The position numbers and the translations under genes are program-made. The notes beneath the pieces were generated by a model, which searched no databases, was not told the DNA's origin, and saw nothing but the letters and a program-made list of their open reading frames with translations. Shown here one piece after another: positions 367-22,806 of a DNA stretch of 61,376 bases. The stretch spans positions 1 to 61,376 of the forward strand of contig JAFQOP010000013.1 of assembly GCA_017403155.1 (NCBI GenBank). Reading direction: 5' to 3'. This DNA is from Clostridia bacterium (lineage in GTDB: Bacteria > Bacillota > Clostridia > Oscillospirales > CAG-272). The first letter of the stretch is position 1. Every line of letters starts with the position of its first letter.

Positions 367-419
367 ATTTCCCACTCGTAGATCGGCAAGCTTGCTTGCC
401 AGGCGCAGAGTGTGGAAAT
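367..419 (+). ncRNA. Covarying hairpin module, copy A
   Basis: The fold has an outer stem ATTTCC/GGAAAT, then CACTC (373-377) with GAGTG (408-412), conserved internal loops GTAGAT and AGGCGCA, and an inner hairpin GGCAAG-CTTG-CTTGCC. Compared with copy B 179 bases downstream, six base pairs change on both sides while the loops stay identical, as expected for a conserved structured RNA. The function is unknown. Confidence 0.65.
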
Positions 420-545
420 ATTGATGCTGCGCGTCAAAATCCTAGATGGTCGGCAGCCCTTGCGGTTATCTCTCTTTTGTTTTGGCGGACTTTCCAGTCC
501 GTGAGAACGTAGTTTTCGCAGGCGAAGCCAAGAAAATAGGTTCGC

Positions 546-598
546 ATTCCCCGACCGTAGATCTGAAAGCTCGCTTTCAAGGCGCAGGTCGTAGGAAT
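546..598 (+). ncRNA. Covarying hairpin module, copy B
   Basis: Same architecture as copy A: ATTCC/GGAAT, then CGACC (552-556) with GGTCG (587-591), the same loops GTAGAT and AGGCGCA, and inner hairpin TGAAAG-CTCG-CTTTCA. One pair of the outer stem (C against A) is lost; all other stem differences are compensatory. A similar CTCG-capped hairpin, GATAAG-CTCG-CTTATC, lies in the putative intron tail near the left edge. Confidence 0.65.
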
Positions 599-2554: not shown

Positions 2555-2631
2555 GATAGCAACACGGTGTAAAACGCGCTTCTATGCACGCAATATTGCT
2601 ATGCACCCTTTTGATTTTGGGAGGAACGAAA

Positions 2632-3816
2632 ATGAAAAAGATTTTATTATCTGTTTTGTCTGTTTTACTGTTATTTTTGCTTGCTTCCTGTGGCATTAAA
2701 TCCACTTGCAATCAATGTGGGGAGCAATGTGATGCAACGAAAAATTACTGTTCCAATTGCGGCGCAGCATTATCTGGCAGCGTTGACGAAAACGAAAAGG
2801 GATCGGAAGGATTACAATATCACCTAAAGAGCGACGGTACTTATTCTGTTGCTTGGGGAACCACGAATCTATTAGACAAAATTGTTATCCCTAAAACGTA
2901 TAACGGAAAGCCGGTCACAGAAATAGAAACCAGAGGCATTGTCTCCCCCTGGAAGGCCAAAGAGGTCGTTATTCCCAATACAATTACTACAATTAGCGAA
3001 AGAGCTTTTGCTTATTTTCAATATTTGACAGATTTTGTTGTTCCGGAGCAGATTGTAAGCATTGGAGCAGGGGCATTTCACGGGTGCGTTAACTTGAAAG
3101 CTATAACTCTTCCCAATACAATAAAAACAATAGAAGCAAGGACTTTTCAATTTTGTATTAGCTTAGAAGAGATTTTTTTGCCGGATTCTATTGAAGAAAT
3201 AAAATACGAGGCTTTTGTTAATTGCTATCAATTAGCCTCAATTACAATTCCCGATTCAGTTAAAGCTATAGATAATACTGCGTTTAACAGTTGCGGCAGG
3301 CTTGTTGAGATTATTAATTACTCTAATTTAAATTTTGACAATTATTTCAACAAAAGAATAGTTCATCAGGGCGAATCCTTAATTAAGAACGTGGATGGAT
3401 TTAAATTCATCACTATAGATAATACGAATTATCTTATTTCTTACGTTGGAGGTGATGAAAAAATTACTTTGCCAAAGTATTATAACAACTCTACTTATGA
3501 ATTGCTTCCATATTACTCGTTAGCGTATTTAACCAATTTCGGTTATCCTTCTTCGATTAACGTAACGGAAGTGGTGATTCCCGAAACCATAACCGTAATA
3601 TCTCCGGCTTTGTTTCATGAGACGAGAAATTTAATCAAAATCACTCTCCCAAAAACTATAACAAGCATCGGGGAGGATTTCGGAAGAGAAACCGGTATTT
3701 CCGATATATACTATCTTGGAACCAAAGAAGAATGGGAGAAGGTAACATTAGAAGAGGGCTGGAAATACGATATAGGAAACGCAATCATCCATTGCACCGA
3801 TGGAGACCTTTCGTGA
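2632..3816 (+). CDS. BspA-type leucine-rich-repeat lipoprotein with zinc ribbon
   Basis: 394 residues from the ATG preceded by GGGAGGAACGAA; an upstream in-frame ATG at 2584 lacks a ribosome site and would bury the signal peptide. A lipobox LASC ends the signal peptide near residue 20. It is followed by a short zinc ribbon (CNQCG at about 25, CSNCG at about 39) and then LRR_5/BspA-type repeats of about 23 residues, with the recurrent pattern IP-x-T/S-I/V-x-x-I-x-x-x-A-F-x-x-C. The family is typical of surface adhesins of gut Firmicutes and Bacteroidetes. A zinc ribbon next to a membrane anchor is uncommon. AT-rich like the rest of the island. Confidence 0.88.
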   Translation: MKKILLSVLSVLLLFLLASCGIKSTCNQCGEQCDATKNYCSNCGAALSGSVDENEKGSEGLQYHLKSDGTYSVAWGTTNLLDKIVIPKTYNGKPVTEIETRGIVSPWKAKEVVIPNTITTISERAFAYFQYLTDFVVPEQIVSIGAGAFHGCVNLKAITLPNTIKTIEARTFQFCISLEEIFLPDSIEEIKYEAFVNCYQLASITIPDSVKAIDNTAFNSCGRLVEIINYSNLNFDNYFNKRIVHQGESLIKNVDGFKFITIDNTNYLISYVGGDEKITLPKYYNNSTYELLPYYSLAYLTNFGYPSSINVTEVVIPETITVISPALFHETRNLIKITLPKTITSIGEDFGRETGISDIYYLGTKEEWEKVTLEEGWKYDIGNAIIHCTDGDLS

Positions 3817-4522: not shown

Positions 4523-5362
4523 TTATGCACCGAAGCTGTAATTGATGTAGGAAAGCATTCTTACCGCGTTGCCGTCCGCGTCGGTATAGCTGAGAGAGAT
4601 GCTCGCAAGAGCGGTGCCCTCGAGCTGGACCGAAACAACTGCATCGGAGGGAAGAGCCGCACCGAGGACTGCCGCGGTGTCAGCCTGCTTAACGTTGATT
4701 CCGAGGGTGTACTCGGATACGATGTAATCGGTAATAGCGGCATTGTCGATGTCGAGCTTGATGCCCGTAGCACCGAGATTCTTTGCAACACCGTGGGGGT
4801 CATCAGTGAAGTTGCCCTCAGCATCGGAAACGATGGTGCCCTGAACGATAGCCTTATCTTCAGCTACGTCAAGACCCGTGCTCTGCTCGTACATATATAC
4901 GATAGTAGCGGTGCCGTTGGTGTTCTTAATGTACATATACTGTGCGTTAAGGAGAACGCCCTCACCGAAGTCAACCTCGATGGTGGTTATGTAATTGTTA
5001 ACTGTTGCAGAGCTGTAAGCAGTAATAAATGCTGCGGCAGCCTCCGTGTAGGTGGGGATAACCGCCTCATCACAGCCCTCGCTGTCACACACGCCGTCCT
5101 TGTCTGCATCAACGTGATTGGTGCAGGGGGGAGGCGCTACAGTCTCGTCGCAGCCCTCGGTGTCGCACACACCGTCCTTGTCTGCATCAACGTGGTCAGT
5201 GCACTCGGGAGCTACCGCTGCACCGCAGCCCTCAGTATCGCAGATGCCGTCCTTATCAGCATCTACGTGGGCTGTGCACTCGGTGTCGCCGCAGGACGCA
5301 AGCGCGAAGGTGCATGTGAATGCGCATGCAAGCATAAGTATAAGTGAAAGTATCTTCTTCAT
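4523..5362 (-). CDS. Lipoprotein with three Cys/His/DxDxDG repeats
   Basis: 279 residues, lipobox LASC (Cys24). The mature N-terminus has three units of about 24 residues built on C-T-x-HVDADKDG-I/V-CD-T/S-EGC. The DADKDG loop matches a calcium-binding DxDxDG loop as in dockerin and thrombospondin type 3 repeats, while the spaced Cys/His residues could instead bind zinc or form disulfides. The C-terminal part (about 110-279) is a beta-rich domain shared in outline with the next two proteins upstream, ending LSYTDADG...INYSFGA. Last gene of a three-gene paralogous operon transcribed from the promoter at 7428-7456. Function unknown. Confidence 0.82.
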   Translation of the reverse strand: MKKILSLILMLACAFTCTFALASCGDTECTAHVDADKDGICDTEGCGAAVAPECTDHVDADKDGVCDTEGCDETVAPPPCTNHVDADKDGVCDSEGCDEAVIPTYTEAAAAFITAYSSATVNNYITTIEVDFGEGVLLNAQYMYIKNTNGTATIVYMYEQSTGLDVAEDKAIVQGTIVSDAEGNFTDDPHGVAKNLGATGIKLDIDNAAITDYIVSEYTLGINVKQADTAAVLGAALPSDAVVSVQLEGTALASISLSYTDADGNAVRMLSYINYSFGA

Positions 5363-5383
5363 AGCTTTATCTCCTATCCTGGA

Positions 5384-6544
5384 TTATGCAACGAGGTCTA
5401 TACGCTGAACGGAGTAGTCGTACTTAACCTCATAGGTTACAAGGCACTTGGGGAAGTTACCCGTTGCCTTGATGCCGTAGGAGATCGTGATGCCCGTTAC
5501 AACAGCGCCATCGTTGGTGATAGAAACGGTTACTGCACTGTCGGTGGTGATAGCAGTGCCGAGCACCTCCTCAACGTTTTCCTTAGCTACTCTGAAGGTG
5601 AGAACGTTGTTATAGGGTGCCTCTACGTAGGTAACGTTCTGAAGAAGCGACTCGTCGAGATTGATTGCAATAGAGCCCTTAGCGGGAGCAAAGTTAGGTC
5701 CGCTGACCCATGTGTTTCCGTCTGCCGCATTTCTGCGTCTGCCGTAGCCCTGGAGGAACTCGTCGGTAATCGTGTAGGTAGTGATAACAGGCTTCTTCTT
5801 GCCGTTGGCATCAACTATGTCGAGAACCTCACGGTGAATAACCTCAACGGTAGCAACAAGGTTGTTGAGCTTACCCGTCTTGAGTGTGGAATCAAAGCCA
5901 AGCGAGTAGGCAACGAACTCCTTGCCCTCCTCGTCATACTCATAGAAGTTCTGCGTGCCGTTTGCCTGCACCATAAGAGGCTCACTGTTCGCATAGCAGA
6001 GAACTGTGTCGGCAATGCCCTGAGCGGGAGTTCTGGGAACGTCAACGTTTGCGCCGCAGTAGTCGCACACGTCATCGTTTTCTTCGTCGTAGTGTGCTAC
6101 GCATACTGCCGCAGTGCATATATCGCATATGCCATTGGTGTCAGCATCGGCGTGTACCGTGCAAAGAACGCCGCCGCACTTATCACAGGTGCCGTCAGCG
6201 GGGTCAAGGTCTGCGTGAGGCATGCAGGCAAGAGCACCGCAAGTCTCGCACTTTCCGTCGTTGTTGGCATCGGTGTGGGTCGCGCAAAGAGAGGCTGTGC
6301 ACTTATCGCACTTGCCGTCGAGATTTGCGTCAACGTGAGGTGCGCACACCTCAGCGGTACACTCGTCGCACTTGCCGTCGGTGTTGGCATCCACGTGCAC
6401 CTTGCAAAGCTCGTCTCCGCAAACGTCGCAGATACCGTCAGCGGGAGCAACGTCAGCGTGTGCATCGCATCCGCAGCTTGAAAGCACTGCCAGAGACAGA
6501 ACCGTAAGCGTGAGGGAAAGAAGAAGGCATATAATCTTTTTCAT
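5384..6544 (-). CDS. Lipoprotein with seven Cys/His/Asp repeats
   Basis: 386 residues from the second ATG, 9 bases after AAAGGAG; the ATG two codons earlier leaves only 3 bases. Lipobox LSSC. Seven consecutive units of about 22-24 residues follow the scheme C-x2-H-x-D-x(6-7)-G-x-C-x2-C, for example CKVHVDANTDGKCDEC, then a C-terminal beta-rich domain of about 230 residues. Several units keep the DxDxDG-like loop; others are degenerate (VAPADG, EENDD). It sits between two paralogs with three and two repeats, which suggests expansion by unequal recombination. The ligand, calcium or zinc, is unproven. Confidence 0.82.
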   Translation of the reverse strand: MKKIICLLLSLTLTVLSLAVLSSCGCDAHADVAPADGICDVCGDELCKVHVDANTDGKCDECTAEVCAPHVDANLDGKCDKCTASLCATHTDANNDGKCETCGALACMPHADLDPADGTCDKCGGVLCTVHADADTNGICDICTAAVCVAHYDEENDDVCDYCGANVDVPRTPAQGIADTVLCYANSEPLMVQANGTQNFYEYDEEGKEFVAYSLGFDSTLKTGKLNNLVATVEVIHREVLDIVDANGKKKPVITTYTITDEFLQGYGRRRNAADGNTWVSGPNFAPAKGSIAINLDESLLQNVTYVEAPYNNVLTFRVAKENVEEVLGTAITTDSAVTVSITNDGAVVTGITISYGIKATGNFPKCLVTYEVKYDYSVQRIDLVA

Positions 6545-6568
6545 CGTCATTGTCTCCTTTCTGTCGGC

Positions 6569-7378
6569 TTACTCTGCCGCGCCCGTATTCACGGGAGCGT
6601 AGGAATAAGAGGTGGTTACGTTAACAACCGCGCCGTTTGCCGCAGTGTACTGAACTTCAATAGCGGAAAGACGGCCGCCTATGGTCTTTACGGTGAGCTT
6701 TACCGTGTCTGCGCTTACCTCGGCGCCGAATACGGTCTCACACAGCTCTGGAGTGAGCTCAGCGGTGAGGGTTGCACCGTCTCTGGACATCGTGTAGTCG
6801 GTGATGTTCTCAACAGTGATATTATTCTTCACGTTCACGTACTCGATTACGGGAGGCATGGAGAGCGCAACACCGTCGGTGAATTCCTCGCTCTCGGAGT
6901 GCTTGACATACTTGGTGTAAATACCGCCTGCGTAAACGATTCTCGTCCACTCGGTTATCTTCGCCTCGTCGCTGTCATCCTCAAAGGTTGCCTCTCTCTC
7001 GGAGGTAACGTCGTGAATGAAGCCGTCCTCGGTGATAGTCGTCCTGTAAATGGTTACGTAAGGTGTGTTGTCTACGGAGATAGAGGACATCGTCGTAATA
7101 ACGGTGGGCTCTGCCGCAGCAATCGCATCAAAAAACGCCTTGTTTGCGGGCTCGACGGGCGCGGGCTCAACCGCCTCGTTACAGCCCTCGGTGTCACAAA
7201 CACCGTCGCCGTCAGCATCAACGTGGTCAGTGCACTCGGGTGCGGGAATCTCCACAGCTGCGCCGCACTCGTCACACACGCCGTCCTTGTCTGCGTCGAT
7301 GTGGGTCTCACATTCACCGCAGGAGACGAGCGCGAGCATTGCAGCTATCGCAACAAGCAAGCAAATTATCTTTTTCAT
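6569..7378 (-). CDS. Lipoprotein with two Cys/His/DxDxDG repeats
   Basis: 269 residues from the second of two adjacent ATGs, matching the MKK start of its paralogs. Lipobox LVSC; two repeat units (ETHIDADKDGVCDEC and TDHVDADGDGVCDTEGC), then a Pro/Glu-rich linker and a beta-rich C-terminal domain of about 190 residues. First gene of the three-gene paralogous operon, 18-25 bases from its neighbour. The conserved C-terminal layout suggests a shared fold with different numbers of metal-binding units; no function is recognised. Confidence 0.82.
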   Translation of the reverse strand: MKKIICLLVAIAAMLALVSCGECETHIDADKDGVCDECGAAVEIPAPECTDHVDADGDGVCDTEGCNEAVEPAPVEPANKAFFDAIAAAEPTVITTMSSISVDNTPYVTIYRTTITEDGFIHDVTSEREATFEDDSDEAKITEWTRIVYAGGIYTKYVKHSESEEFTDGVALSMPPVIEYVNVKNNITVENITDYTMSRDGATLTAELTPELCETVFGAEVSADTVKLTVKTIGGRLSAIEVQYTAANGAVVNVTTSYSYAPVNTGAAE

Positions 7379-7427
7379 CATAATACCTTGTGCCTTTCTA
7401 TCGTATTAGATATATTAAACTAATATA

Positions 7428-7456
7428 ATTATAACTTTTTGGCATCAAAAAGTCAA
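7428..7456 (-). promoter_or_regulatory. Promoter of repeat-lipoprotein operon
   Basis: Read on the minus strand: TTGACT, a 17-base spacer and TATAAT, ending about 47 bases before the first start codon. Between this promoter and the terminator at 7558 the sequence is AT-rich with no further gene. Confidence 0.8.
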
Positions 7457-7557
7457 TAGCAATGCACCCGATAGCCAATCGCCAAAGCGACGAATTTTAT
7501 TTTAATTATTTATTAAAAAGTAACAAAATTCTCTCTCCTCGCTCCCTTTTGCAAAAA

Positions 7558-22531: not shown

Positions 22532-22806
22532 AAAAAACCCCGAGGACAGCCAAAAGGCTGCACTCGGGGCGATAAAAAACATTTTTCGCGGTGCCACCCG
22601 ATTTCGGATAAAATCCCTGAGGCGTACTTCAATACGCCCGACACTGTAACGGGTGTCCTCCGTCAAGGCCTACTCACGCAAAAAGCGCCTTCGGTTTGCC
22701 CTCGAGGGTCCATTCACACACCGTCCTCTGCCGCAATCGCACCGCCTGCGGCTCTCTTGGAGAAGGCTTGGGGTGAGCTACTACTCCCTCTCATCGGTTT
22801 ATAGGG
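22532..22806 (-). promoter_or_regulatory. Tryptophan T-box riboswitch with terminator
   Basis: The canonical T-box GGTGGCACCGC lies at 22588-22598 on the minus strand; its UGGC bulge matches the G73-CCA end of tRNA-Trp. Stem I contains AGAGAGCC and a specifier loop GAATGGACC with UGG (Trp) at 22710-22712. The terminator is CCCCGAG-tgcagcc...-CTCGGGG (22538-22569) followed by T6. Uncharged tRNA-Trp should stabilise the antiterminator and allow trpB transcription. Confidence 0.93.

Follow-up and report, generated by a model that had tools for sequence, protein, structure and literature searches.

What kind of element lies behind the tRNA-Met gene at the start of this contig, and why do its two tandem copies keep their loops while the stems around them change pair by pair? 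The source tRNA gene and the folding DNA repeat that adjoins it belong to an uncultured gut bacterium, and the window, the whole stretch of DNA that we analysed, is 61,376 nt long. A sequence-only reading of the window had claimed that copy A (367-419, ATTTCCCACTCGTAGATCGGCAAGCTTGCTTGCCAGGCGCAGAGTGTGGAAAT) and copy B (546-598, ATTCCCCGACCGTAGATCTGAAAGCTCGCTTTCAAGGCGCAGGTCGTAGGAAT) share the loops GTAGAT and AGGCGCA, that six named stem pairs are altered on both sides, and that a single outer-stem pair is lost. A direct read bore out all three observations, the lost pair being a change from C-G to C-A, and found that the tip loop varies as well, CTTG in A becoming CTCG in B. Both copies were more stable than dinucleotide shuffles (RNA z -4.0 and -2.4), and a degenerate 32-nt pattern for the module had two matches in the window itself and none in 100 shuffled versions.

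The same reading held that the fold matches no known riboswitch, tRNA or intron element. At 1-900 only the tRNA reached its Rfam gathering score, in agreement with this, and a search of the whole window (Rfam release 15, gathering cut-offs) gave no match beyond tRNA and T-box. The T-box leader, at 22562-22803 on the minus strand, was barely over its cut-off (93.7 vs 93), and the ORF downstream of it resembles by eye a TrpB-type tryptophan synthase.

The array behind tRNA-Met

Copies A and B are parts of 179-nt tandem units at 276-454 and 455-633, and the tandem array ends with a third, truncated unit of 32 nt at 634-665 that holds an H1 piece only. All features of the array lie on the plus strand. 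The source of the arm copies, a tRNA-Met (CAT) gene at 186-262, is followed by H1 (262-302), a terminator-like hairpin formed by an inverted repeat that a simple terminator scan missed. Next come what is probably a decayed copy, in inverted orientation, of the 3' end of the tRNA (303-322), recognised by eye as a case of a general pattern that was tested across copies, and the P0 spacer hairpins (321-349).

The fold itself proved to be larger than first described. The original fold, now P2 (367-419 in copy A, with a conserved internal loop at 378-383 and 401-407), is joined by an extra hairpin, P3 (421-437), and by a closing helix, P1, that pairs 358-361 with 441-444. The left strand of P1 is TAGG, the T-stem 5' strand, and leads into TTCGC at 362-366, while 441-451 (CCTAGATGGTC) comprises the right strand of P1 and the displaced tRNA-Met acceptor 3' strand, so that P1 and 441-451 together duplicate two parts of the 186-262 tRNA, its T-arm and its acceptor 3' strand. 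The module proper, about 72-75 nt long, consists of two adjacent hairpins, P2 and P3, and sits in the loop of a displaced tRNA arm copy; the stem of this arm completes a three-way junction around it. The second spacer (455-545) contains a partial H1, an inverted-copy remnant and P0, and is followed by P2 (546-598), P3 (600-616) and the P1 right strand with displaced tRNA-Met 3' strand (620-630) of copy B.

An additional displaced tRNA 3' end (..GATGCTCCACCA) with a full H1 hairpin is found at 2389-2464 on the plus strand, past two lipoprotein-like ORFs. On its 3' side, 2584-3816 encodes a leucine-rich-repeat lipoprotein-like ORF whose match to HupY-type adhesins is far under cut-off, and three adjacent lipoprotein-like ORFs at 4523-7381 on the minus strand carry HVDADKDGVCD.EGC-type repeats, by eye a possible metal-binding repeat.

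Upstream of the tRNA gene and likewise on the plus strand, 1-161 is occupied by a second kind of structured insert, here called A-type, whose 5' end is lost at the contig start and which is flanked on the right, at 143-159, by the 3' half of the tRNA-Met anticodon arm. A-type elements have the same layout around the tRNA-Met anticodon loop, and displaced tRNA-Met halves bear both element kinds; 17 A-type copies were found by pattern and eight were aligned. At another locus (L012, 1262-1560), the anticodon loop of a tRNA-Met 5' half holds an A-type insert; this half stands directly upstream of an intact tRNA-Met, which is accompanied by a copied promoter-side region.

Relatives and their tRNA neighbours

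If the fold were more than a local accident, copies with compensatory changes should occur elsewhere, as the sequence-only reading implied. A covariance model, built from the 28-pair structure of an alignment of 30 copies, found such copies in related Clostridia. In the same genus it matched 56 of 69 genomes, all counts being from MAGs of varying completeness, with up to 18 copies per genome; by DNA search the core was detected in 36 of 60 genomes. Samples of the order and class gave 8 of 245 genomes (7 of 126 genera, the window's own genome included) and 2 of 391, the latter two being the window's genome again and a weak match (E 5.4e-4). The degenerate 32-nt pattern matched at least 118 stretches in species genomes. 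The matches listed (80) were all MAGs whose titles read Clostridia, Clostridiales, Oscillospiraceae or Ruminococcus, and where a title mentions a host animal, it is a ruminant. The module would best be sought in ruminant-gut Clostridia. A phage or plasmid origin was rejected, as blastn found no match in phage and plasmid records and viral contigs held no exact match to the 32-nt pattern.

Searching with the model at 80 loci among the matches listed, out of the at least 118 pattern stretches, and removing from the 242 matches any shorter than 81 or longer than 111 nt, as well as any row that duplicated another together with its 15-nt flanks, left 194 unique copies, two of which (L062:1511 and L078:1513) are reverse-strand echoes of another copy. 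Locus L133 has, at 5155-5381 on the minus strand and behind a tRNA-Val, a pair of three-way-junction modules of simpler form, their P2 being short (ATACCGCC); the model matched them weakly (E 0.0067). They suggest that the class is wider than the model covers.

A tRNA gene lies upstream on the same strand within 600 nt for 134 of the 194 copies, within 150 nt for 97, and at 66-97 nt for 79, and these neighbours span 19 anticodons and 12 amino acids. The flanks of the core follow the adjoining tRNA: on the left they repeat its T-stem 5' strand and TTCG, and on the right its T-stem 3' strand and part or all of the acceptor 3' strand. Over 131 copies, the first 12 right-flank positions matched the copy's own tRNA at 8.2 positions, compared with 4.5 for other isotypes, and the five left-flank positions at 4.3 compared with 2.6. 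Identical runs of at least nine in the right flank were seen against the own tRNA in 40 of 131 copies and in none of the other-isotype comparisons; runs reached at least five in 100 copies and were two or shorter in 17.

The match extends to the junction, where nucleotides 58-60 of the tRNA loop predict the triplet that adjoins the core: ATT gives ATT in 31 of 34 cases, AGT gives AAT in 19 of 25, and AAT gives TAC in 48 of 69. Read as an unaltered target, the right flank fits loop ATT and fails for AAT, since the junction at AAT-loop tRNAs is mostly TAC and is no plain copy of the target.

Moving outward from the tRNA gene, the order in these arrays is tRNA arm and end, H1, inverted tRNA end, P0, and tRNA arm with module. 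An inverted copy of the tRNA 3' end between tRNA and module reached the score threshold in 73 of 97 copies. Among controls, the threshold was passed in 2 of 97 spacers after shuffling, in 69 of 1067 other-isotype comparisons, and at 9 of 37 tRNAs without the element. Arrays at tRNA-Val and tRNA-Cys plainly display the succession of direct end, hairpin, inverted end, hairpin and direct arm with module.

Sixty copies have no same-strand tRNA upstream, and in 20 of them the start lies no more than 200 nt from the 5' edge of the locus. Thirteen of the 60 lie 71-265 nt beyond the 5' end of a tRNA-Ser on the opposite strand, and their flanks resemble the reverse complement of its D-arm, where TTCGAT is likewise present. 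Compared by eye with the particular tRNA, the right flank agrees at all of ten bases in six of the 13 rows and has mismatches in the others, including that of a third copy in the window's genome (L104, on contig 11 of G000), and P1 is lost in these antisense copies. The loss suggests that P1 pairing is a consequence of the target and not a need of the module, and antisense copies with D-arm flanks suggest that the target, TTCG|A, is DNA and not a transcript. The remaining 47 of the 194 copies had neither kind of tRNA neighbour in the locus sequence examined.

Covariation and probable exchange of cores

The fold is kept. Over the 30 aligned copies the three-way junction of P1, P2 and P3 covaries, with 97.6% of cells paired, 18 of 28 pairs changing on both sides, and double changes in 155 cells compared with 47 in shuffles; RNAalifold recovered nearly the same fold without a guide, and P2 retains a conserved GNA/GNA internal loop. 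The sequence-only reading expected covariation to exceed a phylogenetic null, and in P2 it does. Under a tree-based null for 189 copies (20 null alignments, giving a resolution of E 0.05, and a tree built on that same short alignment), six of 26 tested pairs reached E < 0.05, all of them in P2, and three more (two in P2, one in P1) stood at the resolution limit. No P3 pair rose above this null (best E 0.15), and no P1 pair cleared it singly. Covariation scores exceeded 140 for ten model pairs, while the strongest off-model pairing scored 101 and null maxima ranged over 73-189. When 73 copies outside the model set were aligned by MAFFT alone, 85.7% of cells paired, compared with at most 75.1% in shuffles, these copies having been picked by a pattern that fixes part of P2 and P1 being poorly aligned in them (175 cells).

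G-T pairs are rare in the fold. Outside P1, they accounted for 25 of 2074 paired cells when the 90 best rows were counted and for 46 of 2718 over all 124 unique rows (1.2-1.7%), as counted in covariance-model alignments, which are biased toward structure; the 73-copy MAFFT alignment had 18 such cells outside P1. In tRNAs from the same loci (79 unique), G-T pairs filled 23 of 544 acceptor cells (4.2%) and 40 of 380 T-stem cells (10.5%), and within P1, again in a covariance-model alignment, 42 of 446. Together, pair types, antisense copies and target sequence point to DNA hairpins as probably the folded form, in preference to RNA.

A role as functional RNA, such as that of a tRNA trailer element whose T-arm copy binds a tRNA-maturing enzyme, would account for P2 covariation beyond the tree null, for the GNA/GNA loop, and for the sense position of 134 of 194 copies behind tRNAs. 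We nevertheless regard it as very unlikely: the window copies sit behind a terminator-like hairpin, the 13 antisense tRNA-Ser copies have D-arm in place of T-arm flanks and have by eye lost P1, and G-U pairs would be few. An RNA role is also not needed, because the flanks follow DNA sequence even in antisense and G-T pairs are rare. An RNA-like covarying structure that is better explained as DNA is a caution for covariation-based RNA discovery.

How, then, did A and B come to differ? The sequence-only reading allowed either a selected fold or a variable module exchanged as a unit, and comparisons of cores and flanks support the exchange and not two recent copies drifting under RNA selection. 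The two units differ at 19 positions, 18 of them within the 363-437 core and one in the remainder, on which count we rejected A and B as recent drifted duplicates. They carry two different core alleles: B shares 96% identity with a tRNA-Met copy in another species (at L133) and 77% with A.

Similar discordance is found throughout the family. In 28 tandem pairs (two including a truncated copy, L034 850/1015 and L008 1256/1080), core and spacer similarity diverge in either direction, with 0.77 for core and 0.92 for spacer in the window and 0.99 and 0.65 at L177. Five core pairs, hand-picked from the 14 closest, are 93-99% alike at different tRNAs, and their flanks are 46-59% alike upstream and 35-50% downstream, where random upstream similarity has a median of 47% and a 95th percentile of 60%. 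The module seems to have been exchanged, not drifted: all but one of the differences between A and B sit in the core, and like cores have flanks of background similarity.

Nearest-neighbour cores share tRNA type across genomes more than expected (31.9 of 83 vs 8.5; 21.0 of 51 vs 5.3), which indicates that much of core history is vertical. Neighbours also share a genome slightly more than expected (10.2 vs 3.6, the largest permuted value being 13.7; 1.5 vs 0.65). Cores appear mostly to have descended vertically, with occasional exchange.

Compensatory changes need not mean selection, for template switching during replication, as PMC8794818 describes, can write them in one step, and for the covariation alone this is a live neutral alternative. 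Extended to the whole array, it would have tRNA palindromes prompting template switches that leave direct-inverted-direct copies and keep arms complementary, with no dedicated recombinase or function. This published route to compensatory changes (PMC8794818), the layout, which two template switches would produce, and the scarcity of G-T pairs all fit. Near-identical cores at different tRNAs and genomes with unrelated flanks are left unexplained by palindrome dynamics alone, as are the conserved unpaired nucleotides, and we consider it unlikely as a full account.

Enzymes, origin and known systems

Compared copy by copy, the family shows tRNA-specific flanks, what seems to be a TTCG|A target on either strand, cores common to sites with unlike flanks, tandem units, and no recurrent cargo, and the array is best read as belonging to a family of small DNA modules, non-coding and specific to this lineage. 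The core would be inserted or exchanged as DNA through site-specific recombination of the tyrosine-recombinase type at the T-loop sequence, the customised flanks would be matching att cores, and selection or palindrome correction would act on the DNA hairpins. We give this mechanism, site-specific DNA exchange at TTCG|A by a putative enzyme of tyrosine-recombinase type, a probability of roughly 45%, a little short of even. A related claim, that this is novel non-coding mobile DNA in which a recombinase moves folded double-hairpin cassettes between the arms of many tRNAs, we hold to be doubtful. Since cassette flanks would follow the host tRNA, tRNA ends in general could under this claim be landing pads on either strand, and if cores do move, they would be a gene-free mobile module using tRNA arms as general target sites.

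Tyrosine recombinases are encoded in 62 of the 69 genus genomes. Their number correlated weakly with that of the module copies when the 45 genomes of 80% or greater completeness were taken (rho 0.38, P 0.01, phylogeny ignored; partial correlation for size and completeness 0.33, P 0.03), and the correlation was not significant over all 69 (rho 0.18, P 0.15, phylogeny ignored). In the window's genome (87% complete) a single tyrosine recombinase was found, Xer-like and on another contig (L162). It was rejected as an integron integrase, scoring 89 bits against a cut-off of 265 (TIGR02249) and falling under every NCBIfam cut-off.

Other enzymes and cargo were considered and rejected. Reverse transcriptases (PF00078) occur in 11 of 69 genomes, one of them in G064 (11 copies), and none was found in G000, G012, G070, G002, G030 and G073, five of which have 11-18 copies; reverse transcription was dropped as a copying route on the absence from these five high-copy genomes. 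Y1 transposases (PF01797) occur in 18 of 69 genomes, 15 of these above cut-off, and the one in the window's genome has an internal stop. A Y1 mover was rejected, as copy number did not correlate with this family. Among 112 ORFs scanned of the 212 listed near arrays, 144 Pfam families were found at E 1e-5, none of them in more than two ORFs, which gave no recurrent cargo or linked gene.

A different use of a tyrosine recombinase is suggested by integrons. Arrays of attC units have imperfect hairpins in which pairing is kept over sequence, with core boxes RYYYAAC and GTTRRRY at the hairpin base. The module resembles them in forming arrays of units with imperfect hairpins whose pairing is kept, and an integrase might recognise the three-way junction as single-stranded DNA, with the tRNA arm as double-stranded partner and each tandem unit as an empty cassette. 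The covariation, with its scarcity of G-T pairs, the tandem units, like cores with unlike flanks, and the folding of the module as single-stranded DNA would agree with this. The attC core boxes, however, were not seen by eye, the base being GGTTCGCA with AATCC and GTTCGCA misfitting GTTRRRY. The window's genome yielded no integron integrase, and the 28 tandem pairs are spaced 120-305 nt apart, too short for ordinary gene cassettes, with no recurrent ORF family or other cargo. In single-strand DNA folds, moreover, B was equal on both strands, A was slightly better on the plus strand (-15.9 vs -13.8 kcal/mol), and P1 did not form in either copy. We judge a folded single-strand site to be distinctly unlikely.

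Tandem repeats behind a tRNA also have a precedent in rtT, where repeats of about 178 nt, all of which include some of the tRNA 3' end, follow tyrT of E. coli at one locus. The module shares the tandem repeats and the tRNA 3' end and differs from rtT in occurring at many tRNAs.

Closer in target are tRNA-gene islands and Ms6-type T-loop sites. The phage Ms6 integrase uses a T-loop TTCGAA core and can be retargeted to other tRNAs by altering that core (PMC1762012). The arrays share with such sites and islands the T-loop target TTCGA(A/G), a core that can be adapted to other tRNAs, and a displaced tRNA 3' end. The arrays also have an intact tRNA with a displaced 3' fragment in direct orientation, the signature of islands (PMC4383910, PMC9897764), and might be eroded attR ends of ordinary islands and nothing more. 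At L115 a phage-type integrase does lie 350 nt beyond the array. Such erosion leaves the shared structured core, the tandem units and the spread over 19 anticodons unexplained, however, and with no recurrent nearby family we see only a slim chance that it is the whole explanation. Unlike Ms6 and the islands, the arrays come without a recurrent integrase or cargo (among the 112 nearby ORFs, L115 is the sole exception to the lack of an integrase inside the element), carry a folding module in the displaced loop, and have an inverted tRNA end in between. L115 itself (5745-7530), with tRNA-Glu, module copies and then the integrase gene, may be an autonomous relative; 3' of its integrase is an ORF that by eye resembles the one at 2584-3816 of the window.

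In architecture the module recalls the mobile hairpin elements of mitochondria, double-hairpin or repetitive hairpin-forming, which are presented in PMC2800124 as short palindromic repeats, single or double hairpins, that invade intergenic regions and RNA genes. Like double-hairpin elements it has two adjacent hairpins, no ORF and many copies. Unlike these mitochondrial hairpins, to which it is likened by description and not by sequence, it is bacterial, lies in copied tRNA arms, is customised for each tRNA, and has a conserved internal loop.

The module family was undescribed in the literature that we covered on attC sites with tRNAs, tRNA-linked repeats, tyrT and rtT, tRNA-integrase fragments, palindromic elements, template switching and double-hairpin elements, which took in few subscription papers. 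If cores do move, its arrays would be natural material for studying how palindromes are corrected, how recombinases are targeted and what tRNA genes tolerate. With REP and MITE palindromic repeats the module shares being short, dispersed, palindromic and non-coding, and it departs from them in its tRNA-specific flanks and in a copy number independent of Y1 transposases. It is filed here as a small palindromic repeat, unusual in its tRNA-specific setting.
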